Source: Taiwanofungus camphoratus (Eukaryota > Basidiomycota > Agaricomycetes > Polyporales > Taiwanofungaceae). Taken from it: DNA of 64,000 nucleotides. This document shows positions 842-31,901 of this stretch, piece after piece. The notes beneath the pieces were generated by a model, which saw nothing but the letters and a program-made list of their open reading frames with translations, had not been told where the DNA came from and made no database searches. Location: contig CP021220.1 in NCBI GenBank assembly GCA_003999685.1, positions 3,720,001 to 3,784,000 on the forward strand, in the 5' to 3' direction. Within the stretch, counting starts at the first letter, position 1; each line of letters begins with the position of its first letter. The translations under genes were made by a program, and so were the position numbers.

Positions 842-3800
842 ATGTCCGGTGCTCAGGTACGTTCATGGTCGATAGTTGATTGTGAGCTGTAGCTAACTTC
901 TCATAGGATGAAAGCGATGTTATTGCTACCTTAACTGGTTTCTCTCTGAACAATGTCCTGACCGGTCTCGACTTACCAACGGGGCGTGGTCTTTCCGACC
1001 AACTTGGTATCTCAGATGCTTCCAAATTCAGTGCACAACAGATATACAACGACAAGTGGGATGATCCGGATGCAGTTGGCCCTGGTGAAGGCGAGGATTG
1101 GGAAGATGAGGTTGACAGAGAACTGGAGGCAGAAGGATCCGAGGATGGTGCTCAGGTAAAGATGGAAGTGGAGTCTCCCAAGCAGATAGGCCGGAAGGAG
1201 AAACGCAGGAAGGTCATTCGGCGCTTGGTTGAGCGACCGAAGACCGTGTACGAGAGATTTCCATCTTTCGAGAAAGACAAGGTCTTGAACTTCACGGAAC
1301 TGTTCAAGGGGTTCACCGTCAAGAAGTCGCGGATCTCTAAGCGACCATTCCATGGTGTGTATATTCTACTGCATATATCCTCTCCTTGCTCATCGAGTGG
1401 AAGTTGAGAGTGTGTATCCTCGGAAAAGGGAAGCCACGAGGGGACTCCTTGCAGCTATAGTGGGTGACACAGAAAGACAAGTTGAAAGCAAGCGCGTAGA
1501 AGAGGTCGTCGCTTCTGGCAGTGTCGAACATGATCTCAGACGGGCCCTTGAGGTATAAGTCTGGGGTGCGACATGCACGTGCACTACTGAACCGTCCCGA
1601 AATCACTCTAGGAACGGGAGAACACTGATGTACCAATAACTTTGCCCCTCCATGATCGCTCTTTCGATCTAGTCCTCCTCTCCAACTGGGAGGACCAGAT
1701 TGTCTATGAACCAGAAGATGAAATGACTATCCCCACGACTGCTCCTGCAACCGATTTGACTACTCCTCAGAACAAGGTCCTGGAGTCTGGCGCCTGGACT
1801 CAAAGTATAATCTGGAGTCCTCGAGCACCTTTCCGCGATTTCACACAGCTTGAGCTGAATGAAGAAGATGTGGTTGTCGAAGAGCGTCTGCCTTGTATGC
1901 GTCTTGCTTCTATGTTCATCTTGTTGCATCATTGAATACTGTGCTGCAGTAATGGATGTTGTCAGACCTCGGAAACGGCTTAGGACGGACAATCAGCCTA
2001 AAGACAAGTTCAACTTGTCTAATGATCAGTTCTATGAGGTCAGCAAAGATGGGGGTCGGCATCGTGTCCGACAAACTTTCGGTCAGCTTGTTGTCGAACA
2101 TGCTTATCCTGCACAGAAACTCCAATTGCCATTCGTACGTGCCCCTGGATGTGCTCATCTTCGTCGTACTCATCACTACCTTTTTTCTAGTACAAGACCC
2201 GGCTCTCTAAACAAGAAGCTCGTTCCTTTCATCGTCCTGCTCTTCAGTTCCCTGCCAATGTCGAATTGCACTTTAGCAAAGTTCGTACGGCCAAGAAAAA
2301 GAAGGATAAAGCCGGGAGAAAAGTAGGCAAGGGCGGCAATGTTGGAGAAGGGCTTCATAGGTCCGGAGATCTCAGTCTGCGCGACACAAGCAATTTTGTG
2401 CTTTGGGAGTTTTCGGTGATTCGGTTTGTCGTTATACCGTTAACACAACGCTAATGATGAACAGGAGGAACATCCACCGATCGTCTCTAACTTTGGTATG
2501 GGCAATATATTGGTAAATTACTACCGCAAAAAGAATGAGAAGGACGAGCACGTACCCAAGGTTGGTAAAACAAATCTTGGCAAATGATGCTTTATTCACT
2601 ATAGCATTGCTTCAGTATGATCTCGGAGAGCCTATCGTGATTGAGCCGCAAGACGAGTCTCCGTTCATGAAGTTTGGATATGTCTACCCAGGACAGACAG
2701 TCCCAGCTTTATACAATAATCTGATACGAGCACCCTTGTTCCGACACAAATCATACCCGACTGACTTTCTAGTCATAAGGTTCGTGCGTTGTTACTTTTA
2801 GCAGTAGGATCTTAGTTCTGGATCTTTTATGCAAAAGATCGACCGTAAAAAATGACACGAAGTATTATATTCGGGATATCAAGAACCTATTCGTTGTAGG
2901 ACAGACTTATCCTGTAACGGAAGTTCCTGGTCCGCACTCGCGAAAAATCACAAATACGATCAAACATCGGCTTCAAATTATTGCCTTCAAGCTTCTGCAG
3001 AAGAGCTCGGAGGAGAGGTTGAAGATCTCACGGTTGATGAAGTATTTTCCCGACCAGAATGAGCTTCAAATGAGGCAGCGTTTGAAGGTATCCTTGCGCG
3101 CTAAACCTGCGTGGGAGGACCTCTGCATTGATTGTATCCTATACAGGAATTCATGGAATATCACCGACGAGGTCCTCATCAGGGCTTCTGGCGGCTCAAG
3201 TCCACTTGGACCATTCCTTCCGACGCCGACATGCTCAAAATGGTCAACCCGGAGCAGGTTGTGCTGTCTGAAAGCATGCAAGTGGGCCAGCGGCATCTTC
3301 AGGATGCTGGCTACAGCTTCAACGGGGAAGTAGCTGAAGACGACGAGGGCAACCTCTCGGTTGAGCAACAGCTCGCGCCATGGATCACGACGAAGAATTT
3401 CTTGTTTGCCACGCAAGCCAAGGCCATGCTGAGACTGCATGGAGAAGGTGATCCTACAGGGCGCGGCGAAGCTTTCAGCTTCATCCGGGTATCGATGAAA
3501 GATATATTCGTCAAAGCTGGAGAAGATTACGAACAGAAGCTTGGTACGCGCTCTTCCACCCTGGTGTCGCCTGTATGCAACTAACCCTACAAAAGCCGAG
3601 GCTGAGAGCCGTCCCAAGTCCGCTCATCGATACAACGTCGCGGAACAGCAGCAAATATACAAGTCTGAAATTGAGCGAATATGGAAAGCGCAGTTTGACT
3701 CGCTGAGCCGCAAGGACGAACCACAGCTGAGTGGGGACGAAGAAGAAAAGAAGGTTGACCAGAAGCCGCAGCGGAGACAATCGCTCGTCACTGACGTTTT

Positions 3801-4829
3801 TAATGCCTTCACCCCTGGTGGGTCTCCTGTGGCCCGTCATGATACGCCGGGCCCTTCTTCTCCCACTTTCAGTAGAGGCTCCTCGTTGGCCCGTGAGCGG
3901 GAGATGAGTCTTGGACCTGAGGCCCAGCGGAGAGTTCTTCGGATCAAGCGAATGGTATGTGCATTACGTGGATACAGCGTTCGATACAGCCTTTAAATGC
4001 ATATGATGCTAGTTCAACGGGGAATGGAGAACGGAAATCATCCGTGACGCTGCGGTCATCAACGCTTATGTGAAGAGGCGGCAGGCCATCGAGGAGGAGA
4101 TGACGACTGCGGATGCCTTGGCGCCGACTGGGGACGCGGACAAGGACAGACGGGCCAAGAAGAGGTGGAGCACTTTCGAGCCTTTTTTCCGTTTTCTTCT
4201 CAAACGTTCTCACCGGCGCGACTCGTTGTAGGCTCGAGGAAGAGATTGCGCGGATGAAGAAAAACCAGGAACGACGTCTGCATCGGAAGAATGCGAAGAT
4301 CGTCAAGGAGGGCGGCACTCCCATGCAGCTCCATCGGCCGGTGAAGCCTGATACTACTGTAAGTTGGCAGAGCCGGTTCAGGGTTCGGTCCTTACGTACG
4401 TTTGGCAGAGGCGTTGCGGGCACTGCGGTCAGATGGGCCACATGAGTGAGCAGTCAATGTGGATCCAGGGCGGCTGATACTGACCGCGCCTGGACAGAAA
4501 CCAACCGAAAGTGTCCGCGCTGGGCAGAATTCAATTCTGGCGTCCCTCCTCTGCCGACGGCTTCGGCTTCGAGCCCTCCTGCGACTTCTCCTACGGGATC
4601 GGGGGGTGTCGGATTTGGGGGGAGCTCGGAGAGTTTGTTCTCAGCAGGAGGGTCAAATTCTCTGCGTCCGCCAAATCCGTCTTTGAACTTGGGTAGCCAC
4701 GGGCCGTCACCGCTTGCTACCAGCCCTCCCATGATCGCCATGGACGAGGACGAGGACGACGATGGAGATGTACCGCCGACTGCATCTGCATCAGGCCCAA
4801 AGATCAAGTTGACTCTGAAGAAATCTTAG
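842..4829 (+). CDS. TAF1: Transcription initiation factor TFIID subunit 1
   Basis: TAF1 is the scaffold of TFIID in RNA polymerase II initiation. The gene starts with a 5-codon exon (842-856, MSGAQ) and has about a dozen exons. Visible landmarks: an acidic N-terminal part with TGLDLPTGRGLSDQ; the central DUF3591 region (FNLSNDQFYE, VEHAYPAQKLQLPF, NFGMGNILVNYYRK, DESPFMKFGYVYPGQT, APLFRHKSYPTDFLVIR); a conserved stretch around KNLFVVGQTYPVTEVPGP; a helical region around EWRTEIIRDAAVINAYVKRR; a CCHC zinc knuckle (CGHCGQMGHMKTNRKCP); and an acidic tail ending in KIKLTLKKS. No bromodomain is present, as in yeast TAF1. Everything from 3598 on is repeated about 24.4 kb downstream without the front of the gene, so this is the only complete copy here. 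Confidence 0.93.
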
Positions 4830-6953
4830 TAGGTTGTATCGCGTACGAGTGTGTTCGGGCATTATCTCTGTTGTAGCTATAGGACTATGTAATCTCATTT
4901 TACTGCCGGCCCACGAGTGTCCGGTTACTGAACGTTACGTTGACGTGGCAATGACTACGTGCGGGCTGTCTATGTGGTACGTTGAGAATCGAGACGTTTT
5001 CTACCCCAACTACATGTACCGTCATCTGCATCCAAAGTCGGGCCGGTATGGGGACGCCAGGTCCGTGTCGTCTTTGATGTCGTTCACGCCATGCGTTGGC
5101 CAGCGGCTACCGTCATGCAGTTCCAAGTAGACGTTTCTGTGTTCTGGCCGTGTGCTTCTTGCCGCTAGGCGAGTCCGCCCTTACTCAGCGGACGATTCCA
5201 GACGCGCCTGAGGGAATGACGGAACCATACGCTGCGGCCGTTTTGTGGCCCCAGCTGGTCGTGCGTGATCGTCGCCCGAGCGTAGTCAGTGTGCTTCTTG
5301 CTGGAACGGCGCGCGTGGGGTATTTGGCTTACGGCTGGGTGTCCCGGCGGCCATGTCCGGTGCGTGAAGCTAGTGCGAGCCAAATTGTGGACACACACGG
5401 CGATTCTGAATCTGCCAGGTTGCCCGCTTTCAGATCTTCAGACCGTGCTTGCAAACCAAGAGCACCGGGGCCTTCTCGGCGGGTTCAGCGGGTGCCGGTG
5501 CCGCACAGAGCGTGCACACTCAGACCCATGGTCATGTCGCGGCTTCCCAGATCGGTGGACGCGTGCGCGGGCTCTATCGGATCGAGGGAATTGTGCGCCT
5601 GTGCCTGCTTCACGTCTATTTTGGGCTGGCCCAGCGGGGAAAGGCAGGCGCGGAGACGGTCAGGCGAGGAGTGGTAGCGTCTGTGCCTCGGCGCGTGCTG
5701 CGTTGTGGGACGGCAGTGGAAGGGGAGACGTGTACGGCCCTCCGCAGAAATGCGAGGAGGACGGACGTCTGTGTCGTCGACGTCGTTGCAATAATGCGGG
5801 GCAGGACATAGGTTGCGAATGGACGTGCAGGTGTGCCATGTACGGGTTGAGAGGCCGCTGCCGCGAGCCCATCAGCTTGCGCCCATTACGCCGGGCTGGC
5901 ATCGGATGGAGCCTGTACTGGGCCGCTGTCTTTAGACGATATTCCGGCTGAGGCGCACCGACGTCGTCTGACCATGCTGGCTGGCCTTGCCAATGACACT
6001 GCTAAATTTGTCTCTGTCCGTCCGACGTCATGCTAAATCTGTTTCTGTCAGGTCAGGTCACGGGGTGCACTTGGTCGAAGTGGCGGCCCTTCCACCGCGG
6101 TCTTTGAACGGACGGTTCGCACCCACTGGCGACGCCCTGTCCCGTATATGCCCGTCGACGAGAACAGACGCACACACCCCGCTTCCATTGATGCTGGCCT
6201 CGACGAACCCACGATCTTGTCCGTGCCCCCCGAGCCTGCGAATCATGGCTCGAGCGTGGCCCGTCATGCAAGCAGCATGACCAATCCGCCCGTGCCCGCT
6301 TTAGGGCTTCACTCCGTGGCTTACGCTCGTGAGACGCACAGACCGTCGTCGCGGCGGCCGACAGCAGCTGCGATGATGGGCTGTTTGCGCAGCTGCGTCG
6401 CTGCGCGTTCCGAACGACTCGGGACGCGTCGCGCAGTGTTCCGCAGGGTCGCTAAAGGCAGCAGAGGACCGGCAGAGCGGAGGCAGATCGTGCTGTGCTT
6501 CGCGTCCGCTGCGACTTGGCGTTGGTTGACGTGCGATGTAGCCCATGTCTATTATTGTACCGGCGGCACCGAGTCTGCGCATGAGAGACACTGAGACGAG
6601 CAACTGAGACGACTCGGTGGGTGTGCTGCCCATTAGCCTCGGTGGTGTTCTTCCCTTGGCCCTTTGGCTATGGCAATGTCGAGACGCGAATCGATGGCAG
6701 CGACACACCCAGAGTCGCGTAGACCAGGCACACAGCCCATGTGGGGAATTCGCAGGCTACGTTGGCCAGTGCGGCGTCGCGTGCCTAGCTAGCGTGCGAA
6801 TGAGGACGGCGGCGTCTGCCGGGGTGGCTACAAAAGGAAACCCAAGGAGGAGCGTGCCAAGAGCAGCCAAGAGAGACTGGCTTGGCAGCGGGGGACGTGC
6901 CAAGAGATCTCGATAGCGGGCGTGTTTTAAGAGTCGAGGGCGAGTCCAGCACC
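4830..6953 (+). other. TAF1-PacC intergenic region, left copy; no gene seen
   Basis: These 2.1 kb are GC-rich. Short overlapping open frames occur in several phases, but none shows a family motif or consistent splice sites. It probably holds the TAF1 3' UTR and the long PacC promoter and leader. The same sequence recurs at 29186-31291. Confidence 0.6.
6856..6904 (+). promoter_or_regulatory. Cluster of four GCCAAG (PacC consensus) sites upstream of PacC, left copy
   Basis: GCCAAG occurs at 6856-6861, 6866-6871 and 6899-6904, and its complement CTTGGC at 6881-6886, all within 49 bp and ending 50 bp before the PacC start codon at 6954. The consensus bound by Aspergillus PacC is GCCARG. The cluster suggests that PacC acts on its own gene; that is inference. 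Confidence 0.6.
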
Positions 6954-7618
6954 ATGTCTCCGCACAACGACGACGACCCCAGGTCCCTCGTCCCCCTGTC
7001 CACCCTTCAGCACACGCTCTACCGCCAGCTCTATCCCTTCGACATCTCCCCCGACGTTCACCTTATGGCCCTCCCCGTGTCCCCCTCCTCACACCACCCA
7101 CAGCCGTCCGCGTCCCCGCCCCCCCTGTCCCAAACCGGCTCCTCCGAAATCAAGCCATCGTCAACGTCAGACCCGTCGTCCGCAGCAGCCATGCCAGACG
7201 AGCGCCACCAGTGTCAGTGGGTCAACTGCAGCAAAGTTTTCGCCGACCCCGAGGCCCTCTACAACCACCTTTGCAACGACCACATCGGCCGCAAGAGCAC
7301 AGGCAATCTCTGCCTGACTTGCAAGTGGAAGGACTGCGGCACGTCGTGCGCAAAGAGGGACCACATTACCAGCCATCTTCGAGGTGAGCGCCGCCGTCCG
7401 TTGGCCTTGGCGGTGCCGTCGGGGTGCTCACGTTTCGATATAAAGTGCACACGCCACTGAAGCCTCACGTCTGCATGATCTGCAAGAAACCGTTTAAGCG
7501 TCCCCAGGATCTCAAGAAGCACGAGAAGATCCACACGGAAGAGCACCACGCCCAGCACAAACATGATTATGCTGTCGACGTTCGAGGAGGCGCTCGGGCT
7601 GCTGCACGCGACCGTTGA
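6954..7618 (+). pseudogene. C-terminally truncated PacC/Rim101 copy, zinc fingers intact
   Basis: Exon 1 (6954-7383) and exon 2 (7446-7618) splice into a 200-residue frame. It keeps the N-terminal region and the three C2H2 zinc fingers of PacC (from [10 protein letters not shown] through [21 protein letters not shown]). After QHK the sequence jumps, in frame, over a stretch equal to about 445 bp of the intact gene (including one intron) to six residues HDYAVD of the next PacC exon. It then runs into foreign enolase-derived sequence and stops twelve residues later. The whole regulatory C-terminal two thirds of PacC is missing. The promoter and GCCAAG cluster are kept, so expression is possible. 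A zinc-finger-only product would resemble the processed PacC form; this is inference. Confidence 0.8.
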
Positions 7619-7890
7619 GTGGGCAGGGCACACGGGGCGCGTCAAGTTCGGCGTGGACCCGGCGTCGTTCGAGTTCTTCCAGCACGCGTCGTGCACGCAG
7701 CGGACAGGGTGCGGTCGGCGGCGCAGATGGTGGACGTTTACGCGGACCTGCTGGCGTTCACGCAGCGGGTGGGGGCGCGCGTCGAGATCGTCAGTGACGA
7801 CCTACTCAGCACAAAGGTGGTGCGGGTCGCCAGGGCCTGCAACGCGCTGCCGTCAGCGAGTCGATGGACGACTGGGCGGCATTCACGTGA
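7574..7890 (+). pseudogene. Enolase gene fragment fused to the truncated PacC
   Basis: One frame reads [19 protein letters not shown] followed by RVKFGVDPASFEFF, which lines up with the enolase segment EEALDLIVDAIKAAGHDGKV...GLDCASSEFF. After a frame change a second piece, GARVEIVSDDLLSTKVVRVARACNAL, matches the enolase stretch around QIVADDLTVTNPKRIATAI...ALLL. The part in between, including the IVSIEDPF catalytic segment, is missing. It is therefore a shuffled, non-functional piece of the central and C-terminal barrel of enolase (phosphopyruvate hydratase), a host housekeeping gene. No intact enolase gene is in the window. The recognition is by motif, without a search. Confidence 0.7.
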
Positions 7891-9060: not shown

Positions 9061-9239
9061 GGCGCATGAATGCCTGCGTCGAAGGTAACCAGACAATATA
9101 TTTATTTATTCATATCACTACCTTCCGCGGGCAACCGAGAGTGATCTTTTACGATGAACATGCAACCTACAGCCCCCATCAGCTACAGTCGCAGGCAATG
9201 CAGCAACGGTGTGAGCATACCTTCCAATCGTTAAAGATG

Positions 9240-9720
9240 GCCTCCCACCCTTGCTCGCGGGACGTCGATATGTATAGACATCGTGACAGCAGCCTTGCTT
9301 TAGGCTCACAACGTCGATTGGATGCTGGTACATGCTTGGCAACTGCACGAATGGCAAGAGCTTGAAGCTTGCGAGGACCGTTGTGCTCGCAGGCACGCTC
9401 CCTCAAAATGAAGATGCAAACGGGTCAGAGAATGACACCGCCCACATGACCTCCTGCTCCTGCTCCTGGGACGAAAATATTTTTTCAATATGGTCTCCTA
9501 CCCCTGCTCGCGGGACGTCGATATATATAGATTTCATAATGGCGGCCTTGGTTTAGCCCATGTTGTAGACATGGATTGGATGCTAGTGCATGCTCAGCGA
9601 CAATGTGAATGCCATCAGGAGCTCAAAGCTCATGAGGACAATGAAGACGCAAACTGCCCGTGTGCCCAGTGCTATGTCTCCTGCCATCAATATATATGGA
9701 CATTGTGACAGCGGCTTAGT
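9240..9720 (+). repeat. Repeat family A, first cluster (three units)
   Basis: The core GACGTCGATATATATAGACA, or a close variant, occurs at about 9261, 9515 and 9682. It is preceded by a CCTGCTCGCGG-like stretch and followed by TTGGATGCTRGTRCATGCT and a purine-rich AGCTYRAAGCTTGYGAGGAC part. The same family returns at 23395-23770 and once near 24558. The unit length is roughly 160-260 bp. No function is known to me. Confidence 0.6.
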
Positions 9721-9779
9721 GGCAGCCTGCGTGCAACAGCGACATCAGCTTACTGGCGAAGATCAATCCTTCTGAGGAT

Positions 9780-10855
9780 TCATGGAGGGCTGCTCACGGG
9801 ATGGCAATATATCAATATATTGTCTTCTCGCACAGCTTCCAAGTCAAAAACGCCCATTGAGCACTCCGCAGACTATGAAGAGCATGGTCATTAACTTATG
9901 CTGTCCATGTCAAAGAATACACATACCTATGTTGTCTTCTTGGCTTTCGAGCTTAGATAACATAGTATTTGAGACTGTATCATTTCAAAATGGCATTACG
10001 GAGGCATACGGGAGACTCGAAGATGTCAGACTACAACGAGCTCTTATACCTTTGCAATTGTGCTGTTGCGCAATGGTTGCTATGAACAAGATCTCGACAG
10101 AATATTCCATCATATTTTGCACAACGTAGAGCCATCGCAAATTGTTCATTGCTTCGGCTCACTCTTCTCTTACGTGTGATCAAATTATCTTCACTGCCAT
10201 CTCTCGTGTGAGTTTTACTCCTCCGACAGTTTCAGTGGTGTCACTGTGTGACCGAGCCCACAGTACTACCGATCTGACTCTTATCTTATCTGTGAGCAGT
10301 CCTGTCTCGAAAAATGGTTGACATAGTGGAACTGCAAAAAATATGACCTGGATTGCTCTGAGAATGTGCTAGCAGCTCAAAGTGCCACCAGCCCACAATC
10401 AACCTGACATCAAGTTCAAGTAGAACATGTATGTCAATTGTCTGTGAAAGGCTGATTGGCCAATCTCGGACACACTATTTGATTGAACCTTCTCATTGCA
10501 CAACACTCAATCCTCCGGTCTCAAAATTTTGTATGCTAATTGCAATGTGAATGGGATTGTCTGTTAAATTACCTGTGCCTCCATTTGTGGTGTGCTACAA
10601 TTTACTGACTGACTGTGCTCATCCTTGGCCTAATTTCGAGCACAAAACCACAGAACATTGCTGCAAGAATTTGATTGACACTCGTTTGCTCGCACTCTCC
10701 GGGACAATCTAATCAGCGGATGATCCTGGATTTGTGTCACATCTGGGAGTCCCTTATCGGCTTTGCCATGACTCCAAGGTGATTATTTTTTTTAAAAATA
10801 ATTACAGATATTCAAGCAATTGAGGTAAGTGTGCACGCTGTGTGAGACTCAATGC
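9780..10855. other. AT-richer stretch without recognisable genes
   Basis: Base composition is clearly more AT-rich than in the flanking genes, with short stop-rich frames. I recognise no gene, RNA or element end here. Confidence 0.5.
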
Positions 10856-10859
10856 CGAT

Positions 10860-11313
10860 CTGTTCGTCTGTTGCCTCTTTTTTTTTTGTTTGCAGAGCTG
10901 TGCTCCTGTCCTTACAATACTAGGTATCCCCATTCCATCGAGGCTACAATGGAGAGCTTTCCATCCATTAATGTACATCTTGTGCCCACTAACCGTCAGT
11001 ATTCCTGACATGGTACCCATTGTTGTCAGATTATTCCTCAGTGAGCTCCGTGTATCTGTCGTTTCTGTCACCAAGATTTCGAGGCACGGGTGAATTTACC
11101 CAGCTGCATCATTTTGTATTTTCGAAATACAAACTTCCATGCGCGTAATAGCCACCGTTAAGGTACGCGAAGGTTTGCACACGCAACGGTACTTTACTTT
11201 CTCATGCTGCATCCTCACCGAAGTGTCTCAGCTATTCTTACCCCTTTCATAGAATCCCACACCACTGGAACATCCTTCAGGCAGTGCTAGCGGCATGACA
11301 TGGTGCTCTGTAC
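10860..11313 (+). repeat. Repeat block C, left half of first copy (interrupted by the LTR element)
   Basis: Sequence from the AGAGCTGTGCTCCT motif near 10896 to 11313 matches about 24633-25022 in the same orientation, at roughly 80 % by eye. The match includes GGTACGCGAAGGTTTGCACA and CTGGAACATCCTTCAGGCAG. The match resumes after the retroelement at 18385, so the element landed inside this block. Confidence 0.75.
11309..11313 (+). repeat. Target-site duplication TGTAC (left)
   Basis: TGTAC abuts the element here and again at 18385-18389. A 5-bp duplication is usual for Ty3/gypsy integrases. Confidence 0.9.
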
Positions 11314-11867
11314 TGATACAAGCTGGTATCAACGACCGGAAAGCCTCGAACGTGAGGACCTGGCTACTGAAGATAGTAGTGAGGCTTTATGGACACTGCG
11401 TATGTCCTCCTGGGCGAAGTCGATAGAGTCGAGCGAGTACTCAGGTACGAAGCGAGAGGTCGCAAGATACGAGTATAAGATTGCTAGTGGTAACTAGCTA
11501 CTTGGTAACCAGATCGAACTTAAGGTCCGACCTACAAAGTACACGGCCTTATATACGTATTCTACCCTGCGCACGGACCATGGCACGTGGTCTAAGAATC
11601 AGCATGAGTAAGCGTAAGTAAGGCGATATGAGTCATCGGGCCGTATTAGCAATCAGTAAGCGTAAGACGGAACGTGTAAGCGGGGCCCGATATGAGTCAG
11701 AGTCCATGAGTAACCGGGGCCCGTCCGGGGCCCGTACCGTAAGCAGCGATGAGTCAAGATGCTGCGTGAAGAAGCTGGGCCTACCCGAGGCCCGTCCTAG
11801 AAGCGAAAGGTCATGGGACCGATCCGAGGTCCCACCGATAAGATATGCGATGAAAGAAATTGTATCA
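11314..11867 (-). repeat. 3' LTR of the Ty3/gypsy element
   Basis: It is 554 bp with terminal TGATACA/TGTATCA inverted ends and appears identical to 17831-18384. On the minus strand it lies downstream of the polypurine tract. Confidence 0.95.
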
Positions 11868-11880
11868 TTACCCCCCTACT
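11868..11880 (-). other. Polypurine tract
   Basis: On the minus strand AAGTAGGGGGGTA directly precedes the 3' LTR, the usual place for the plus-strand primer of reverse transcription. Confidence 0.7.
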
Positions 11881-12145
11881 TATGATTGAACGCCTGGTCA
11901 ATCAACTAAACTCTAATGGGGATGCGTCGAGTCTCTCCGAGTTGAACTTTTGGCAACCGTCGACGAACTTGACGAACTTCCGAGGACGAACTTGAAAAAC
12001 ATTTCCTGGAAGTGACGAGCGGGTGTTTCACCGCGACTGATAAGGGATGACCCTTGAACCCATAGGGGATGACCCCTCCAACCGTGAGCATCCTTCCAGC
12101 TCGAACTTTCTACAGTTTTACGACATGTCGGTCGTACGTTGCAGT

Positions 12146-12400: not shown

Positions 12401-12437
12401 GCGAGCGATGAGTGGGGTGAAAATGCGACTCCTTTTC

Positions 12438-18384: not shown

Positions 18385-18389
18385 TGTAC
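18385..18389 (+). repeat. Target-site duplication TGTAC (right)
   Basis: Exact match to 11309-11313. Confidence 0.9.
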
Positions 18390-18948: not shown

Positions 18949-18955
18949 TATAAAA
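18949..18955 (+). promoter_or_regulatory. TATA-like box TATAAAA with CT-rich downstream region, block C copy 1
   Basis: TATAAAA is followed by a long pyrimidine-rich stretch (about 18967-19020) and, at 19066, CCACCATGGTGCGC, a good start-codon context. The second copy at 25911 keeps the TATA box, the CT-rich stretch and the GTGCGCTTCGTGCGC segment. It resembles a promoter, but no long frame follows. Confidence 0.45.
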
Positions 18956-19360: not shown

Positions 19361-21480
19361 GGTACGTACCGGTTCGTTTGAGTTGGCCCGTCGCTGAATT
19401 CACACTGTCATGCCGAACATCCCAGGCATATCGGGCTCGTCGCGTGAGTAGTCCAATTGGCAGGGCGGGCGGGCACAAAAGCGTGGGGGAGGAGGTGGTG
19501 GTAGAATTATTAGAGATAATCGAGTATCGTACCGTAGTTACATCCTTGGACGTGACCACGTACGCCGGGCGGCGGTGCGTTGCGGCACTCGCACCCTGTT
19601 CGTTCTCGGCTAGCTGGGACCCAGGGCTGAGATTTGGGGAGGAGAGAGACGGGCATGGTGATCCCGTCTGTCCCCATTCCTCGAGCGCACCGATGTGCTC
19701 ACAGCTCAAACAGCACACAGGGTCGGCTATGCAGCTTCCCCGTGGCTGAGCGGGATACCGCGACAAGCTCGACTCCACCCTGTTCGCAAGCGAATCGAGT
19801 CACCGATTAAGCAGGATAGCCACTGCTGGGCAACTGGCCAAACGCTCGTGGAACAGCGAGCGGGGGATCAGCTCCGGGTAGCGTCGGTACGGCCAGCATG
19901 AGTATCTCGCAGACGGTGGATGGCGGACGTCGAAGACGGTTGTGTGAGTGTGAGTCCTCAACTTGGAAATCGGCCAGGAGCAGGGCTCAGTGAGCCAGAA
20001 GCAAAGAGCCGGATGGAAAAGCAAGGCTGACATTACGTACCCAGCGGCACATCCAGCCATGGCCATGTCGTCATGCTGGACATTCACAATGCCACTCGCT
20101 GTTCACCGTCGATGAGGTAGGGAATATAACCTATCTTTCCGTCAATCTACGTACTGACATGCCTGCTACCCACCTGCAGTGCTTCACCACGCTCCCCGTT
20201 GGCGATGCGGTCGAGTCGCTTGACTGCGCTCGCCGTTCGTGAGCGTCAGCACACGTCAGTCGCATGATCTTCACGGTAGCAAGGGCGCCAGCGCCATTGA
20301 CCGCTCGCCCTTCGCCTCTCTCTCTTCGCGCATCACAGAGTATCAAGACTGCAGGTACGTACCGGTCCGTTTGAGTTGGCCGGCCGGCTGCTGAATTGAC
20401 ACCGCCGTTCCCAACATCCCAGACATGGTGCTCGTCGCGTGAGTAGCTGTGTTGGCAGGGCGGCGGACACAAGTGTGGAAGGGACAACGAGGAGGCGGTG
20501 GCAGTATTATAGAGATATATTGGACTACCGTACCGTAGTTACACTCTTGGACGTGGTCGCGTGCGCTGGGCAGTGCGTTGCGGCACTCGCACGCACTCTG
20601 CTCGTTCTCGGCTAGCCGGGAACCAGCGCTGATGAGACTTGGGGAGAGGAGAGACGGGCCTACCTCTGGTGCCTCACCATTGCCCCCGTTCACGATGCGG
20701 TCGAGTCGCTTGACTGCGCTCGCCGTTCGTGGACATCTGCGCACGTTCATCGCATGATCTTCACGGTGGCGAGGGCGCCAACGTCATCGACCGCTCGCCC
20801 TTCGCCCCGCTCTTCATCGCGTTATCTCTCCGCTTCGCGCGCATCGCAGGTACGTACCAGTTCGTTTGGGTTGGCCCGCCGCTGAATTCACACTGCCATT
20901 CCGAACGTCCCAGGCATCGGGCTCGTCGCGTGAGTAGCAGCCCAGTTGGCCCCGTTGGCAGGGTGGGCACAAAGGCGTGGAGGAGGCGGGGGCAGTATTA
21001 TTAAGATATTCGAGTACCGTACCATAGTTACACTCTCGGTCGTGGTCGCGTACGCCGGGCGGTGCGTTGCGGCACTCGCGCCGCGTTCGTTCTCGGCTAG
21101 CTGGGACTCGGCTCCGAAATTTGGGGGAGGAAAGAGACGGACATAGTGGTCCCATCTGTCCCCCATCGTCCGTGCGCACCGAGGTGCTCGCAGCTCGTGC
21201 AGCGTGCAGCGTCAGCTCATGGCTGTACGGGAAACTGCGACAAGCTCGACCCTACCCTGCCCTGTTCGCAAGCGGATCGAGTCCGCAAGCAGGCAGGATA
21301 GCTGTTGCTAGGCAACGTACATGAAACGGCGAGCGGGGACCAGCTGCAAGCAGCACCGATATGGCCAGCGCGAGTGTCTCGTGGACGGCGGACGTCAGAT
21401 GGCTGTGCGAGTCGAGGGAAAGCAAGGCCGACGTTACATACCTAGCGGCACATCCAACCACGGCCGTGCCACGCCGGGCT
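19361..21480 (+). repeat. Repeat family D, first cluster (three units)
   Basis: Units begin with GGTACGTACC at 19361, 20354 and 20849. Then come TTCGTTTGRGTTGGCCCG, a CGTCCCAGGCAT-like stretch, GGGCTCGTCGCGTGAGTAG, GAGGAGGYGGTGGYAG, RGTACCGTACCGTAGTTACA, GTGCGTTGCGGCACTCGC, and CGTTCTCGGCTAGCYGGGA. Two of the three end with a CGACAAGCTCGAC ... TGTTCGCAAGC tail. Divergence between units is about 15-25 %. Short frames recur but are not kept in phase, so I do not call genes. Confidence 0.65.
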
Positions 21481-21484
21481 GTCA

Positions 21485-22990
21485 CATCAAATGCCACTCG
21501 TCATCCGCCTACCAGAGAAGGCACGGGGTGCTGATTGGCACCAGCACGCGGATACTCTGCGCGAGGCTGGAAATCGTCAGCGTAGGAGTCTCGGGTGATG
21601 CGAGACGACACGAGGCCGTGCGCAGCTCGCGAACGTGCTCGATTTGAGAGGTGGCTGCCAGTCGCGAGCCGTGGACGGCTGGATGCGACGGTCTGTGGGC
21701 GGTATCCTGTCAAACCGATCGCTGGTGGGTCGTGGGCGGAGGGGATGCTGTCAGCACTCGGTGCCCATCCCAACGGGCATGTACGTTCGCCCCGCGAGCG
21801 TCGTTGTCCAGACCCAAGACCCCAGAAGACGGTCTCATACGCACCTGACTGAGTCCTGGGGCGTGCGCGAGCGTCTGGGGGCACTGCGCGCATGTTCGTC
21901 CCAGTCGTGTTGGGTGCCTGGCAGCTTCTCGACGACCCGAGTGCACACGCGAGACGAGCGAGGTCCGGGTCGAAGAGATCGAGCGTGAGAAGTGCGGGGT
22001 AGGAGCGGCAAGGGGCCGAGGGCAGTCCGAGTCGTATCGCGGATCTGGCGCGCGTTCGTGTGGCCAGTGCCAGAGCGTCGAGATCGGCGAGGGCACTGTG
22101 AGCGCAGCACTAAGATGTCAGTGCCCCCCCCCTCCCCCCACCGATGAATGGCGAGTGCTCACGGCTCTCAGAGGGTGCAGTAAGCCCTGCGTGTGGACCG
22201 ACAAGCCCAAGCCTGCGAGGAAGAAAAAGACGGGCGCAAGCGCGCCCTGCATGACGGAGCTCACGCACCACGCACGCTCGAAACATGAGTTGTACGGGCA
22301 TCGGGAACAGCGCACAGAGCCCATGCATACGAATGTCAACACCAAATGGTATTCAGCGTGTTACGGGCGCACCAAGCGCACCGGCGCGCAACGTCTGTGG
22401 ACATCGACATGGACAGCGGGCACTGTATGTAGCCCAGGATGCTGGTAGTGGATCGAGGAAGCGCACCTGCTTGCTACCCGAGTTTCAGCGCTCGTCTCGT
22501 CTGCCAAACTGCGAGACGTCTGGATGCCGAGATAGCGGAAGACTGAGTGGCTGGGCGGCCCGAGGAGCACACGAGAGGAGAGCGAGTTGCGCCTCGAGGG
22601 GGAGAGCGCGCTGAGCGTGTGAAGTGCCAGATGGAGGCGATCGCGAATATCGCGCGTCCATTCAGATATCGGATGGATGCTCGTAGTCGCCCGAGTGCCC
22701 AGCAGCTGGAAAGTCGTCGAGAGCGCTGCATTTGTCGGCAGCGCACCAGCAGAGTCGTAGGCACACAGCACCGAAGCGGGCCCTGCGCTCGAGCGAGCGG
22801 GCGGCGGTGTGGCGGGCGCGCGATCTCTCATCCCGGACGGCCTGTCACGTGACTGGGCATGCCAATAATTTGACAGCAGCTGGTTTCTACTTTACAAGGC
22901 GACTCTCTACGGCTACTCCTCTCCTGCCCTTCCGTCATTCTACCCACCACACACGCTGGCGCGCTGACACCTGCCAGCTAGCGACGAACA
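21485..22990. other. GC-rich spacer, no gene recognised
   Basis: Many short frames occur on both strands, as expected at this GC content. None has a recognisable motif or splice pattern. A pyrimidine-rich stretch at about 22905-22960 directly precedes the next frame and could be its promoter. Confidence 0.4.
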
Positions 22991-22997
22991 TGCCGAG

Positions 22998-23390
22998 ATG
23001 CCGCGGAAGAGCTGCCTCAAGACGACCCCAACGCTGACACCGGATGTGAGCGAAGAACCGTCGACGCCGAGCGGGTCCAAGTGCGGGCGGGGATCGCCCG
23101 GTCCACCTCCACCAGGGCGGGAGAGGATGGGGATGCAGAAGCGGGTGTCGTCCTACGAGGAAGAGGGGCTGGAGGACATGTACAAGGCAGACGAGTGGGG
23201 TCGCTCGGCTGCGCCGGTGATGCCGAGGCTGTCCGCAGTCCTGTGCATGCAGGATGACGACACGGCGTCGGTTGTGCCTGATCCCGTTGGTGGAGGGTCT
23301 CCCGTTTCTCCGTCGTTACTTAATGCTGGACGCTGCCAGTGGCTGACGCCTTGTCGCTCCACTCGAGCTCAAACAGCTGCATCTGTGTCC
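22998..23390 (+). pseudogene. 5' fragment of an unknown protein gene, cut by repeat A
   Basis: A frame from ATG 22998 begins MPRKSCLKTTPTLTPDVSEE and continues Pro/Ser-rich to KADEWGRSAAPVMPRLS. The composition and the ADEW-RS-x-P-RLS pattern look like a real exon of a disordered fungal protein. A CT-rich leader precedes the ATG. At about 23395 the frame enters repeat family A and ends soon after, so the gene is probably a truncated, captured piece. I cannot assign a function. Confidence 0.4.
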
Positions 23391-23394
23391 TTGC

Positions 23395-23770
23395 AGGTCG
23401 TCAATATACATAGATGTCATGATGGTGGCCTTACTTTCGGCTCACGTCGTGAGTAGACATGGGCGCATGCTCGGTGATTGTGTGAACAGCAGGAGCCAGA
23501 AGCTCGAAGTTGTAAGGACTGTTGTGCTCACAGACGCACTTTCTGGGGACGGAACACCTTTTTGATCTTTGAGATGGCCTTCTGCCCCTGGTCACGGACG
23601 TCGATATATATAGACATTGCAATGGTGTCATGGAAATGGGTGCAGGCGAGGACTGCCATGCTCGCAGGCATGCTCTCTAAAGATGGAGATGTTCTTCCAA
23701 TCTTTAAGATAGTCTCCTGCCCCTGCTTGTGGGATGTCAATGTATATAGACATTGCAACGTCAGCACGAA
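23395..23770 (+). repeat. Repeat family A, second cluster
   Basis: Variants of the GACGTCGATATATATAGACA core lie at about 23398, 23597 and 23734, with the same flanking words as in the 9.2-9.7 kb cluster (TTGTGCTCACAGRCRCACT, GCAGGCATGCTCTC). A lone further copy of the core is near 24558. Confidence 0.6.
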
Positions 23771-23774
23771 ACTT

Positions 23775-24550
23775 GATGCAAATCTGTTGAATCTCATCTG
23801 GCTCCTACACATCGGAATTGAACGTAGTCTGACTACGGTCAGCGGGAGGTCAGCTGACAGTCCCGGGAACCAGAGGATCATTGCATGCTTGTGTGCTGCT
23901 TTTAAAACATGGGTGTACTTATGCAACAGACCATACCTATTGTTTCATGTTATGGAACAATGCTCACAATGCCACATATAAAACCATATCCAGACTGAGA
24001 TGAGTAACAGCCATAACAGGTGGAGACAATACAAAAGTAACAAAAATGTTGTGATAAAGCAGTATGTACTTGATAAATACTAGGGTGATGCACCATAGAA
24101 CTAGTAGCACCACTACTATGGTTGCGCCACCGTAGCGTGACCATGCTCACTGGCCATGGAAAAGATCCAGCAACCTTGATGTGATGACACTAACCTTGTC
24201 AATAAATGATTGATCCCTTGTTAGTTTGTTCAATCGGCAAGAAGCCTGTGTTCAATAGCTGGCATGATGGATGTGGGTGGTGGGCGATGCCGATGTGTCA
24301 ACAGGGAAGTTCATTTGAAGAAGTTGAAGTCAAGCTTCAAGTCAAACCTCGGGTAAGCTCTGGACACCATAGCTACAAGCAGACTCTAGCTCACGACAGT
24401 AATCAATTGGTAAACGTGGATGTTAGTATAACTGTTACTTTCTGAGGAGTAGACGAAGGTCTTTGTTTGATGCGCTGCTCACACCCCAGCTCACACGCAG
24501 TCCCAGGTATACATCGGGCTCTAAGATTCGCAGTCAGACTACAATTCATT
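23775..24550. other. AT-rich stretch, no gene recognised
   Basis: It occupies the same relative place as 9780-10855 in the first composite copy and is likewise AT-richer. I found no frame with a family motif. Confidence 0.45.
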
Positions 24551-25539
24551 TCTTGAACGTGTATAGACATTGCAATGTTGTCAGTACGAAACTCGATGCA
24601 AATCTGTTGAAATTCATCTGTTGCCTTTTTTCACAGAGCTGTGCTCCTATGTTTTTGGATGATGCTAGATATCATGGCATCCCCATTTCATCAAGGCTAC
24701 AACAGAGAGCTCTCTGAAATCGTGACAACAGTATTCCTGGCACGACACCCATTGCTGTCAGATCATTTCTTTGCTCTCTCCATTACCCATCACTACTGCA
24801 GCCAAGAATCCGATGTGCGGATGAATTTACCCAGCCACGTTGTATTGTGTTTTCAAAATACAAATTTCCATGCATGATAGCCGATTAGGTACGCGAAGGT
24901 TCGCACACGCAACGCTACGCATCCTCGCCGAAATGTCTCGGCTATTTCTTACCCTTCTGTAGAATCCTGCACCGCTGGAACATCCTTCAGGCAGTGCTAG
25001 TGTCATAGTGCGGTTCTCTGCACTGCACTGGAGGGTTTGCCGTTGCAGACCTGGGTGAAGCTTCCAGCCTTTTCTCCTATCCGGGAATCTTCTCAATTCT
25101 GCACCCATTGACTGAAAGCCTGACTTACCCAGTAGTGGAGAGACGAACAAAAACTCAAGGTTCCGAATGTTCAAACAGGAGAGTGAGTCTGCACATGAAT
25201 TCTAGCGGCTACGTACGCGTTACGCGGACAGGTAAGTACGTTACGATCATGGTTGCGATGTAGAATATGTTCTGCTTACCGAGCCGTATTACTTTTGACC
25301 TGTTCTTCTTCAGGGCCCTGCACGTCTATCAGCAGAATATTGTCACGGTTATGTGGATGGGTTTCTCAACTGTGTGAGAGCATCCCTCCTTCCAGGTGTG
25401 TGGTCTCTCGTCTCGCAGCGGTTCTCTTCCTCATCGCGGTGGGCCTTCGCCGTCTGTCTGTCTTTACAGGTGGTGTGGTGTTCCCCCGTAGCTGGACAAA
25501 TTCGAGCGGCAGAAACCCATCTTCCGCTCATTTCGCTTG

Positions 25540-25555
25540 TAGCGAAGGTTCGCTA
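25540..25555 (+). promoter_or_regulatory. Palindrome TAGCGAA-GG-TTCGCTA in block C, copy 2
   Basis: Same 16 bases as 18599-18614, again followed by AGCGATTGG. Confidence 0.5.
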
Positions 25556-25910
25556 GCGATTGGGCTCGGTCTGATCGAGGTACGTACGTGCAAATTCCCG
25601 TCTCCCGTACGTCCTTCCCGCACCCCATTCTTCGTTGTCCCTTTTCCGATGCTGGTGCTACGGCAGCCAGCCGCTTCCGCCTGTCTCTCCCTGCAAGCGC
25701 GGTCAGCTCGCCGTTGCTAGGGCACCATTTCGCGTAGCTTCTAGCGGAATGACGAGGGCTACACAGGAACACTGCGCGAGCGAATGCGAGACGGGCGGCG
25801 TTTCTCGTCTCTCTCACCTCCGTTCTCGGTTAGCAATTGGCGGCTGTTCGTTTCGCCTGACCGGTGCGCGGAAGATGGAGATGATTGGGTCGGCAGATTG
25901 GGGATGGGGG

Positions 25911-25917
25911 TATAAAG
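25911..25917 (+). promoter_or_regulatory. TATA-like box TATAAAG with CT-rich downstream region, block C copy 2
   Basis: It is followed by a CT-rich stretch and GTGCGCTTCGTGCGC at 26055, as in copy 1. Confidence 0.45.
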
Positions 25918-26344
25918 AGGTGGGTGTTCCTCTTCTCTTTTTACTCCATGTTCTCCCTCTCTTCTACCCGTGTCTCGATCAGACTTGCGTATCCTGCCGT
26001 TGCCTTGCTACATCCCCCTCAAGGATGGTGATGCTTACCCTGTTTCCGCCACAGTGCGCTTCGTGCGCCGTTCGCCGTTGACGATAGGGAGGGAACATAA
26101 CTCTATTTTTGTCAACTTATGTACTGACATGATCGTCACCTACCTCCAGAGCGTCACCATGCGCCCGCATCCCGTTCACGGATGCGGTCGAGTCACTTGA
26201 CTGCGCTCGCCGTCGTTCGTGAGCATTTGCACAAGCCCGTCGCACGGGACGAGGGCACTAACGCCATTGACTACTCGCCCTCCCCTCGTCTCTCCACTTC
26301 GCGCGGCATCATGGAGCGTCAAGACTAGGGATATCAAGACTGGA

Positions 26345-27450
26345 GGTACGTACCCAATTTGTCTGAGTTGGCCTGCCACTGAATTCAAACTGCCGTTCTG
26401 AACGTCCCAGACAGACTTGACGGTCGTCGCGTGGACAGCTGCTTTATTGGCAGAGGGGAGGGACGACGGGGAGGTGGTGGCGATATCATAGAAGTAAATA
26501 GAGTACCGTACGTACCGTAGCCACAGTCTCTCGGTCGTGCCTGCATATGGTTGGCAGTGCGTTGTGGCCCTCGCTGCCATTGGTGAGTAGCGTCTGCACA
26601 TGCTCGTGGCATGATCTTCATGGTAGCTAAGGCACCAGCGCCATCGACTGCTGCGGCGCCGTTCGCCTTCATCACGTTATCTCCCTGCTTCGCGCGCATC
26701 GCGGAGTGTCCAAGATCTACAGGTACGTACGTACCGGTTCGTTGGGTTGGCCCGTCGGCGCTGAATCCAAGGTGCCGTTTCTGAACGTCCTAGGCTTCGC
26801 GCTGGTCGTGTGAGCAGCTCCGTTGACAGGGCAGACAACGAGGAGGCGGTGGCAGTAATACCGTACTGTAGTTAGACGGACTCTCTCGGTCGTGGGCGGT
26901 GCGTTGTGGCACTCGCCGCCGTTCATGAGCAGCATGTGTAGATGCTCGTCGCGTGATCTTCATGGTGTCGAGGGCACCAGCACCATCGACTACTGCGCCC
27001 CAAGTCTACAGGTACGTACGTACGTACGTACCAGTTCGTCCTGGTTGGCCCGCCGCTGAACCGAACGTTCCAGGCTTCGCGCTCGTCGTGTGAGCGGCTC
27101 CGCTGGCGGGGCGGGCACAAACGCGCGGAGGGGGACGACGAGGAGGTGGTGGCTGCATTATTATAAAACAAATAGAGTACCGTACCGTACCGTAGTCGTT
27201 CTTGGTCGTGCGCGCGCCCAGTTCGTCATTCTCGGCTAGCCGGGACCCAGCGCTGAGACTTGGGGAGGACGGACGGACGTCGTGCACCGAAGCGCTCGCA
27301 GCTCGCACAGCGCACAGCGCATAGCGCGAAGCATCGGCTATGCACCCTCCACGCGATAAGCTCGACTGTGCCCTGTTCGCAGGCGAATCGAATCCACGAG
27401 CGGGCATGATGGCCGCTGCCAGACAAACGGCAAGCGGGGGACCAGTCGAC
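26345..27450 (+). repeat. Repeat family D, second cluster (three units)
   Basis: Units begin with GGTACGTAC at 26345, 26722 and 27011, the last with the ACGT word repeated five times. The same ordered words as in the first cluster follow, ending with the CGATAAGCTCGACTGTGCCC ... GTTCGCAGGC tail near 27355. Confidence 0.65.
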
Positions 27451-27454
27451 GGGG

Positions 27455-27890
27455 CCATACCCAATGCCGTACGACAGCTGTTGTGTGCCGACCCACGCGG
27501 ACTGCACCGAGTTCATCGTCATGTCCATGTTGTTCCTCATCGCCACGCTGCACGCGTTCTGCCAGTCCGGTCCGAGATGGCGTGAGGTCGGGTTCGGCGA
27601 GAGGTCCAGGATGGTGGCGGGCAGGAGTACTGGTCAGATCGTTCGCGTTGGCGTCGGATCCGACGACACCACTGTGGCAGGAGAATGCAGGGAAAACGCG
27701 CGATCGAGAATCGGCGACGGGAAGGGGGTGGGGCAATGGACAGAACAGAAGACATACCTGGTGGGTCGTGCATGTGCACGCCGCCCGTCATGGGCGAGCA
27801 CAGACAGCGCGCGCACGGCGGTGTCCGTGAGTGGGCTAGCGACTTGCGGCCCGTGTCGCCTCGCAGGGGCCCCAGAGCAGCGTCGTGCAA
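27455..27890. other. Junction region; possible short hydrophobic exon fragment
   Basis: A plus-strand frame contains ADCTEFIVMSMLFLIATLHA, which looks like one membrane segment followed by a GTGAGG donor-like site. It has no recognisable partner exon and may be another captured gene scrap. The right duplication begins just after this region. Confidence 0.25.
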
Positions 27891-29185
27891 CAGAAGCTTG
27901 GTCTGCGCTCTTACACCGTGCTATCGTCTGTATGCACTTGTCTTACAAAAACTGAGGCTGAGAGCCGTCCCAAGTCCGCTCATCGATACAACGTCGCGGA
28001 ACAGCAGCAAATATACAAGTCTGAAATTGAGCGAATATGGAAAGCGCAGTTTGACTCGCTGAGCCGCAAGGACGAACCACAGCTGAGTGGGGACGAAGAA
28101 GAAAAGAAGGTTGACCAGAAGCCGCAGCGGAGGCAATCGCTCGTCACTGACGTTTTTAATGCCTTCACCCCTGGTGGGTCTCCTGTGGCCCGTCATGATA
28201 CGCCGGGCCCTTCTTCTCCCACTTTCAGCAGAGGCTCCTCGTTGGCCCGTGAGCGGGAGATGAGTCTTGGACCTGAGGCCCAGCGGAGAGTTCTTCGGAT
28301 CAAGCGAATGGTATGTGCATTACGTGGATACAGCGTTCGATACAGCCTTTAAATGCATATGATGCTAGTTCAACGGGGAATGGAGAACGGAAATCATCCG
28401 TGACGCTGCGGTCATCAACGCTTATGTGAAGAGGCGGCAGGCCATCGAGGAGGAGATGACGACTGCGGATGCCTTGGCGCCGACTGGGGACGCGGACAAG
28501 GACAGACGGGCCAAGAAGAGGTGGAGCACTTTCGAGCCTTTTTTCCGTTTTCTTCTCAAACGTTCTCACCGGCGCGACTCGTTGTAGGCTCGAGGAAGAG
28601 ATTGCGCGGATGAAGAAAAACCAGGAACGACGTCTGCATCGGAAGAATGCGAAGATCGTCAAGGAGGGCGGCACTCCCATGCAGCTCCATCGGCCGGTGA
28701 AGCCTGATACTACTGTAAGTTGGCAGAGCCGGTTCAGGGTTCGGTCCTTACGTACGTTTGGCAGAGGCGTTGCGGGCACTGCGGTCAGATGGGCCACATG
28801 AGTGAGCAGTCAATGTGGATCCAGGGCGGCTGATACTGACCGCGCCTGGACAGAAACCAACCGAAAGTGTCCGCGCTGGGCAGAATTCAATTCTGGCGTC
28901 CCTCCTCTGCCGACGGCTTCGGCTTCGAGCCCTCCTGCGACTTCTCCTACGGGATCGGGGGGTGTCGGATTTGGGGGGAGCTCGGAGAGTTTGTTCTCAG
29001 CAGGAGGGTCAAATTCTCTGCGTCCGCCAAATCCGTCTTTGAACTTGGGTAGCCACGGGCCGTCACCGCTTGCTACCAGCCCTCCCATGATCGCCATGGA
29101 CGAGGACGAGGACGACGATGGAGATGTACCGCCGACTGCATCTGCATCAGGCCCAAAGATCAAGTTGACTCTGAAGAAATCTTAG
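27889..29185 (+). pseudogene. TAF1 3' fragment (lacks the N-terminal and DUF3591 exons)
   Basis: From the intron equivalent to 3544-3597 onward it repeats the last four exons of TAF1 almost base for base, through the zinc knuckle to the stop codon at 29185. No start, DUF3591 region or TAF1 promoter precedes it, so it cannot make TAF1. The intron-derived part (27889-27953) is noticeably more diverged than everything after it. Confidence 0.9.
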
Positions 29186-31901
29186 TAGGTTGTATCGCGT
29201 ACGAGTGTGTTCGGGCATTATCTCTGTTGTAGCTATAGGACTATGTAATCTCATTTTACTGCCGGCCCACGAGTGTCCGGTTACTGAACGTTACGTTGAC
29301 GTGGCAATGACTACGTGCGGGCTGTCTATGTGGTACGTTGAGAATCGAGACGTTTTCTACCCCAACTACATGTACCGTCATCTGCATCCAAAGTCGGGCC
29401 GGTATGGGGACGCCAGGTCCGTGTCGTCTTTGATGTCGTTCACGCCATGCGTTGGCCAGCGGCTACCGTCATGCAGTTCCAAGTAGACGTTTCTGTGTTC
29501 TGGCCGTGTGCTTCTTGCCGCTAGGCGAGTCCGCCCTTACTCAGCGGACGATTCCAGACGCGCCTGAGGGAATGACGGAACCATACGCTGCGGCCGTTTT
29601 GTGGCCCCAGCTGGTCGTGCGTGATCGTCGCCCGAGCGTAGTCAGTGTGCTTCTTGCTGGAACGGCGCGCGTGGGGTATTTGGCTTACGGCTGGGTGTCC
29701 CTGTCCGGTGCGTGAAGCTAGTGCGAGCCAAATTGTGGACACACACGGCGATTCTGAATCTGCCAGGTTGCCCGCTTTCAGATCTTCAGACCGTGCTTGC
29801 AAACCAAGAGCACCGGGGCCTTCTCGGCGGGTTCAGCGGGTGCCGGTGCCGCACAGAGCGTGCACACTCAGACCCATGGTCATGTCGCGGCTTCCCAGAT
29901 CGGTGGACGCGTGCGCGGGCTCTATCGGATCGAGGGAATTGTGCGCCTGTGCCTGCTTCACGTCTATTTTGGGCTGGCCCAGCGGGGAAAGGCAGGCGCG
30001 GAGACGGTCAGGCGAGGAGTGGTAGCGTCTGTGCCTCGGCGCGTGCTGCGTTGTGGGACGGCAGTGGAATGGGGGGCGTGTACGGCCCTCCGCGGAAATG
30101 CGAGGAGGACGGACGTCTGTGTCGTCGACGTCGTTGCAATAATGCGGGGCAGGACATAGGTTGCGAATGGACGTGCAGGTGTGCCATGTACGGGTTGAGA
30201 GGCCGCTGCCGCGAGCCCATCAGCTTGCGCCCATTACGCCGGGCTGGCATCGGATGGAGCCTGTACTGGGCCGCTGTCTTTAGACGATATTCCGGCTGAG
30301 GCGCACCGACGTCGTCTGACCATGCTGGCTGGCCTTGCCAATGACACTGCTAAATTTGTCTCTGTCCGTCCGACGTCATGCTAAATCTGTTTCTGTCAGG
30401 TCAGGTCACGGGGTGCACTTGGTCGAAGTGGCGGCCCTTCCACCGCGGTCTTTGAACGGACGGTTCGCACCCACTGGCGACGTCCTGTCCCGTATATGCC
30501 CGTCGACGAGAACAGACGCACACACCCCGCTTCCATTGATGCTGGCCTCGACGAACCCACGATCTTGTCCGTGCACCCCGAGCCTGCGAATCATGGCTCG
30601 AGCGTGGCCCGTCATGCAAGCAGCATGACCAATCCGCCCGTTCCCGCTTTAGGGCTTCACTCCGTGGCTTACGCTCGTGAGACGCACAGACCGTCGTCGC
30701 GGCGGCCGACAGCAGCTGCGATGATGGGCTGTTTGCGCAGCTGCGTCGCTGCGCGTTCCGAACGACTCGGGACGCGTCGCGCAGTGTTCCGCAGGTCCGC
30801 AAAGGCAGCAGAGGACCGGCAGAGCGGAGGCAGATCGTGCTGTGCTTCGCGTCCGCTGCGACTTGGCGTTGGTTGACGTGCGATGTAGCCCATGTCTATT
30901 ATTGTACCGGCGGCACCGAGTCTGCGCATGAGAGACACTGAGACGAGCAACTGAGACGACTCGGTGGGTGTGCTGCCCATTAGCCTCGGTGGTGTTCTTC
31001 CCTTGGCCCTTTGGCTATGGCAATGTCGAGACGCGAATCGATTGCAGCGACACACCGTAGACCAGGCACACAGCCCATGTGGGGAATTCGCAGGCTACGT
31101 TGGCCAGTGCGGCGTCGCGTGCCTAGCTAGCGTGCGAATGAGGACGGCGGCGTCTGCCGGGGTGGCTACAAAAGGAAACCCAAGGAGGAGCGTGCCAAGA
31201 GCAGCCAAGAGAGACTGGCTTGGCAGCGGGGGACGTGCCAAGAGATCTCGATAGCGGGCGTGTTTTAAGAGTCGAGGGCGAGTCCAGCACCATGTCTCCG
31301 CACAACGACGACGACCCCAGGTCCCTCGTCCCCCTGTCCACCCTTCAGCACACGCTCTACCGCCAGCTCTATCCCTTCGACATCTCCCCCGACGTTCACC
31401 TCATGGCCCTGCCCGTGTCCCCCTCCTCACACCACCCGCAGCCGTCCACGTCCCCGCCTCCCCTGTCCCAAACCAGCTCCTCCGAAATCAAGCCATCGTC
31501 AACGTCAGACCCGTCGTCCGCAGCAGCCATGCCAGACGAGCGCCACCAGTGCCAGTGGGTCAACTGCAGCAAGGTTTTCTCCGACCCCGAGGCCCTCTAC
31601 AACCACCTTTGCAACGACCACATCGGTCGCAAGAGCACAGGCAATCTCTGCCTGACTTGCAAGTGGAAGGACTGCGGCACGTCGTGCGCAAAGAGGGACC
31701 ACATTACCAGCCATCTTCGAGGTGAGCGCCGCCGTCCGTTGGCCTTGGCGGTGCCGTCGGGGTGCTCACGTTTCGATATAAAGTGCACACGCCACTGAAG
31801 CCTCACGTCTGCATGATCTGCAAGAAACCGTTTAAGCGTCCCCAGGATCTCAAGAAGCACGAGAAGATCCACACGGAAGAGCACCACGCCCAGCACAAAC
31901 A
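27954..31901 (+). repeat. Direct segmental duplication, right copy
   Basis: Counterpart of 3598-7563. Offsets are 24356 in TAF1 and 24338 at the PacC start; the 18-bp difference is the sum of small indels in the intergenic part. Confidence 0.93.
29186..31291 (+). promoter_or_regulatory. Promoter/leader region of the intact PacC gene (right copy of the intergenic)
   Basis: It is nearly identical to 4830-6953. GCCAAG or its complement lies at 31194-31199, 31204-31209, 31219-31224 and 31237-31242. All four are conserved between the two copies. Confidence 0.55.

Follow-up and report, generated by a model that had tools for sequence, protein, structure and literature searches.

The TAF1-PacC neighbourhood of Taiwanofungus camphoratus contains a 4-kb segment in two direct copies separated by ~20 kb of mostly repeat-like DNA. 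We interpret this as a partial direct duplication, probably real and of older date, which has a patchwork at its junction, repeats in its spacer and a core that has been homogenised or recently exchanged by recombination. The window, i.e. the whole stretch of DNA that was analysed (64,000 nucleotides of contig CP021220.1, positions 3,720,001 to 3,784,000), was compared with itself by BLAST, which paired 3532-7563 with 27889-31901 in the same orientation (4032 columns, 98.66%), bearing out the original prediction of a 4-kb direct duplication with a 20-kb island between the copies. A column-by-column alignment of the core (3598-7561) revealed 22 substitutions and 3 indel events over 3946 aligned sites, and the resulting divergence of 0.56% agrees with the value of about 0.6% that had been estimated by eye. 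The predicted start of the duplication at position 3598 holds for this core, but recognisable homology extends upstream to 3532, over a further 66 bp of much lower identity. The arrangement is that of a partial direct (segmental) duplication, one ancestral segment being present twice in the same orientation (Table 1).

Table 1. Coordinates of the features in the window, with the evidence on which each assignment is based
Feature	Position	Strand	Evidence or remarks
TAF1, complete (left)	842-4829	+	DUF3591 in two tested pieces, frames to stop; start codon by eye
Decayed duplication edge (last 12 bp of a TAF1 exon and its intron)	3532-3597	+	52/66 identical to 27889-27953
Left copy, core (TAF1 3' part, intergenic region, PacC 5' part)	3598-7563	+	Self-BLAST and alignment
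Four predicted PacC-type sites (GCCARG, either strand) in 49 bp	6856-6904	+	Four sites within 60 bp in 0/5000 first-order simulations
Left PacC, truncated, 200 aa	6954-7618	+	Exons 6954-7383 and 7446-7618, stop 7616-7618; translation
19-bp patch	7562-7580	+	Identical to PacC 32346-32364; 2-bp CA microhomology at the joint
Enolase-like scrap (putative), frameshifted, gapped	7581-7890	+	phmmer, Pfam
Spacer ("island")	7583-27888		No match to flanks
Older diverged repeat, split by the retrotransposon	9221-21500	+	Partly paired in order with 23390-27426
Ty3-type LTR retrotransposon with chromodomain	11314-18384	-	Identical LTRs; target duplication TGTAC at 11309-11313 and 18385-18389
Right TAF1 fragment, 3' end only	27889-29185	+	Alignment; acceptor site of the first intron altered
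Right copy, core	27954-31901	+	Self-BLAST and alignment
PacC, complete (right)	31292-34077	+	Pfam zinc fingers, translation; later exons by eye

Genes and uneven identity of the two copies

As had been predicted, the left copy completes TAF1 and breaks PacC, while the right copy does the opposite. Two pieces of the left TAF1 match the Pfam family DUF3591 (E-values 1.2e-35 and 7.6e-53) and its frames continue to a stop codon at 4827-4829, and the right PacC runs from a start codon at 31292 to a stop codon at 34075-34077. With TAF1 supplied by the left side and PacC by the right side, the locus would still work. We take the second gene to be PacC on account of the finger sequence of this family and of the PacC-type promoter sites; no PacC-specific model gave a score, and Pfam backs its zinc-finger part only. 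The claim that each gene is kept in just one working copy is correct as far as full-length genes are concerned, but the left PacC retains an intact promoter and the DNA-binding fingers: its 2.1-kb upstream region, start codon, first intron, three zinc fingers and open frame are all present. According to the translation, it comprises 182 native and 18 foreign residues and is devoid of the C-terminal region. The Pfam zinc-finger matches span residues 86-111 and 151-173 (the middle finger was recognised by eye), and the native part stops about nine residues past the last finger histidine.

The predicted PacC-type sites were searched for with the A. nidulans PacC consensus GCCARG (quoted in PMC3618310). 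The cluster of four lies ~50 bp upstream of the PacC start in both copies, and nowhere else in the window do four such sites fall within 60 bp. Altogether, eight sites were found upstream of the left PacC versus 3.1 expected (P-value 0.013). In T. virens, nine PacC-type sites are described within 1 kb upstream of pacC, and autoregulation was suggested (PMC3618310).

The differences between the two copies are distributed unevenly. The TAF1 part holds 2 substitutions in 1232 bp, the region between the genes 10 in 2124 bp and PacC exon 1 another 10 in 430 bp, with none in the 62-bp intron or in exon 2 (116 bp). The longest identical run spans 1473 bp (3873-5346; P-value 0.0004, 20000 permutations), and the 10 exon 1 substitutions, out of 22 in total, are confined to one stretch of 226 bp, which was matched in none of 20000 simulations. 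This identity is higher or patchier than a uniform clock would give, as in interlocus gene conversion, judged here from two sequences and without an outgroup. The pattern fits conversion in patches or an exchange with a diverged allele, but two plain alleles can show it as well; allelic differences are also uneven, so the mosaic alone does not speak for conversion. Seven of the 10 differences in PacC are silent. If both copies had evolved neutrally, this excess would have a P-value of 0.0017-0.0065, and if one copy was constrained and the other neutral, a P-value of 0.016-0.073, depending on the rate settings tried. The silent excess thus appears to exclude neutrality of both copies, and only weakly excludes a neutral left copy next to a constrained right one; these values suggest either selection on the left PacC or an allelic origin of the copies.

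Two further features were noted downstream of PacC and beyond: a small heat-shock protein (HSP20, E-value 1.9e-13) at 35053-35270 and, on the minus strand, a HIT-domain match (E-value 2.7e-6) at 50522-51058, while nine other ORFs tested in the region 39-59 kb gave no Pfam match. Rfam reported two tRNA genes (35626-35723 and 48447-48557; 48.6 and 51.8 bits), of which ARAGORN, in its bacterial mode, called only the one at 35626-35723, and with a stop anticodon, probably owing to an intron.

Junctions and spacer

The inner ends of the two copies are scarred, each differently. On the left, PacC can be followed to 7563, whereupon 446 bp of the gene are skipped and the match resumes for 19 bp (the CA of the joint counted). 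There follows a sequence with a first piece that resembles residues 218-256 of enolase (phmmer E-value 3.6e-4) and a second piece, in another frame, with a phmmer E-value of 0.0087. The Pfam profile Enolase_C scored 19.9 bits, just below its cut-off of 21.5, and given this score and the modest E-values we assign the scrap to enolase with moderate confidence. On the right, the copy ends in the 66-bp edge, in which the differences start past the first 14 bp, are mostly intronic and include an altered splice acceptor; the score of this short match (52/66) was reached by none of 5000 shuffles. Upstream of the edge, the alignment exhibits no visible similarity between the copies. The two ends of the spacer differ in kind, with gene scraps or unassigned DNA adjoining the copies, and the scars look like aged genomic breakpoints.

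The spacer matches neither flank at an E-value of 1e-3. It contains a young retrotransposon with a single frame of 1780 codons (12441-17780) that matches protease-like, reverse transcriptase, RNase H, integrase and chromodomain sequences; the paired LTRs, the short target duplication, the position of the reverse transcriptase and RNase H before the integrase, and the chromodomain identify it as a Ty3-type element. Together with the short introns of the genes, such an element is consistent with a fungal genome. It interrupts an older repeat, the paralogue of which runs across the insertion point (10997-11315 plus 18385-18437 versus 24729-25071). The element is younger than the repeat around it and the spacer predates it, and we therefore rejected the retrotransposon as the maker of the duplication.

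Much of the remaining spacer consists of stretches that are 66-92% alike to one another. Within the older repeat, 19082-21412 comprises three mutually repeated stretches (~76% alike), with more relatives at 26066-27269, and some of them bear CAG-GTACGTACC motifs that resemble exon-intron borders when inspected by eye. An open frame with a start codon and a promoter-like upstream region was found at 22998-23330 and enters the repeat at ~23390; it looks like the 5' fragment of another gene, and the ORF around it (22968-23453) is without a Pfam match. Outside the retrotransposon, none of the tested ORFs of at least 85 aa (58 of the 66 in the spacer and two that overlap the right copy) reached a Pfam cut-off, the enolase-like piece having been scanned separately from these 58. 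The gene scraps prompted us to consider capture by a Helitron, which we rejected: the same set of ORFs revealed no helicase or Rep domain, the terminal motifs having been checked by eye only.

Origin of the duplication

The proposal of a tandem duplication with filler fits the locus best, with a patchwork at the left junction that is succeeded by repeats. The duplicated segment would have begun in a TAF1 intron and ended within PacC (~4.5 kb, 27889-32364 or more in coordinates of the right copy), and the junction would have been patched from scraps of other sequence, possibly by template switch or end-joining. The left copy would then have lost 446 bp inside PacC at the 2-bp microhomology, the outermost part of the right copy would have decayed, and the spacer of diverged repeats would later have gained the Ty3/chromovirus element. 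Recombination, either of the two copies or of their alleles, may have kept the 4-kb core alike or lately exchanged it. The low identity of the edge as opposed to the 0.56% divergence of the core, the 446-bp skip and the enolase-like scrap are scars not expected from an assembler join, although the edge is short and the evidence on the duplication amounts to two sequences; we infer a genomic event, its age and the homogenisation of its core. Interlocus-converted partial segmental duplications likewise consist of two direct copies, which are nearly identical in the core and have unevenly spread differences; for Aspergillus, conversion accompanied by deletions has been reported for ectopic paralogues (PMC12844118), and interlocus gene conversion has been modelled for segmental duplications (PMC4132178). 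The present case differs from them in that conversion is deduced from the pattern in two sequences and that a repeat-rich spacer lies between the copies.

A fault of the assembly, in which a single path was built from two haplotypes, or from the native locus and a separate repeat locus with the same 4 kb, is in our opinion unlikely, albeit worth serious consideration. Haplotype duplication is a documented problem in assemblies of dikaryotic fungi, and it likewise yields tandem near-identical copies with allele-like divergence (PMC10995626); the divergence of the core is compatible with such an origin, and the mostly silent substitutions in PacC exon 1 are what would be expected between two functional alleles. 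The original suggestion of two haplotypes joined by an assembler is sustained to this extent, but a join alone does not explain the junctions. Joining normal haplotypes in tandem would leave whole genes on both sides, whereas here the copies end inside genes and give way to unrelated, decayed sequence on each side, and the window does not contain any N. At this place, the PacC of one haplotype would have to be truncated and the TAF1 of the other reduced to a 3' fragment, and the decayed edge, the skip in PacC and the enolase-like scrap would still be left unexplained; in these patchworked inner junctions within genes the locus is unlike a dikaryotic haplotypic duplication.

A locus with whole genes on the outside and fragments on the inside would also result from a Campbell-type, i.e. 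single-crossover, integration, in which a circle or an ectopic repeat-rich segment with a captured TAF1-PacC fragment would have undergone one recombination with the native locus. This explanation accounts for the full gene on each outer side and places the scars at the inner, element-derived ends (the PacC end of the left copy and the TAF1 end of the right copy), where they are found. A duplication with filler makes the same prediction, however, and the tested spacer ORFs revealed no mobile-element gene besides the retrotransposon; we consider such an integration decidedly unlikely. The suggestion of an insertion that duplicated 4 kb of its target had in its favour the direct repeats that border a mostly repetitive spacer, and it can be practically dismissed. 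The recognised element is flanked by a 5-bp target duplication of its own, deep within the spacer and inside the older repeat; the differing spacer ends share only weak short matches, no terminal inverted repeat stood out, and no element ends with terminal motifs adjoin the two copies. No transposase is known to leave target duplications of 4 kb. A literature search revealed no direct parallel to the locus, which is not to claim that none is in print.

The truncated PacC and its possible role

Partial duplications are an event of a known kind, and it is the particular product, a promoter-bearing PacC reduced to its fingers, that deserves attention. The nuclear active form of A. nidulans PacC has about 250 residues and is made by proteolysis of the C-terminal part; it is approximated by residues 6-253, while a frameshift allele with residues 5-238 is described as acidity-mimicking (PMC4832277). 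The left PacC resembles the processed form in that the zinc fingers are kept and the C-terminal region is absent, but its native part ends at residue 182 and not near the processing point at about residue 250 of the A. nidulans protein. Since it is shorter than that form, it would more probably act as a competitor or be inert than serve as a pH-blind activator.

Truncated relatives of pacC are known from Fusarium oxysporum, where three lineage-specific homologues that lack the C-terminus and keep the DNA-binding domain are found among transposable elements (one of them among Gypsy elements); two are moderately expressed, and PacC_b is nuclear (PMC6994591). These copies are described as 60-74% identical to the full gene and as located on other chromosomes or regions (PMC6994591), whereas the left PacC is a near-identical direct duplicate with the same promoter, 24 kb from the full gene.

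We speculate, while regarding it as rather unlikely, that the left copy is a working minigene, which encodes a self-regulated finger-only PacC under the duplicated PacC promoter with its four PacC-type sites. If so, its product would escape the pH-controlled proteolysis. With nearly everything behind the fingers lost, it would more probably compete with the full PacC than activate, and the competition would take place at shared sites, including both PacC promoters; the direct repeats would let a single recombination event revert this state.

Should the locus prove to be an assembly fault after all, it cautions against taking gene counts in such genomes at face value. Provided that the junctions are real, it is a gene neighbourhood with a gene for a general transcription factor that has been split by 20 kb and is nevertheless functional, because each full gene sits outside the repeats, and it would illustrate how a copy of a pH transcription factor that has a promoter and is regulator-free can arise beside the full gene.
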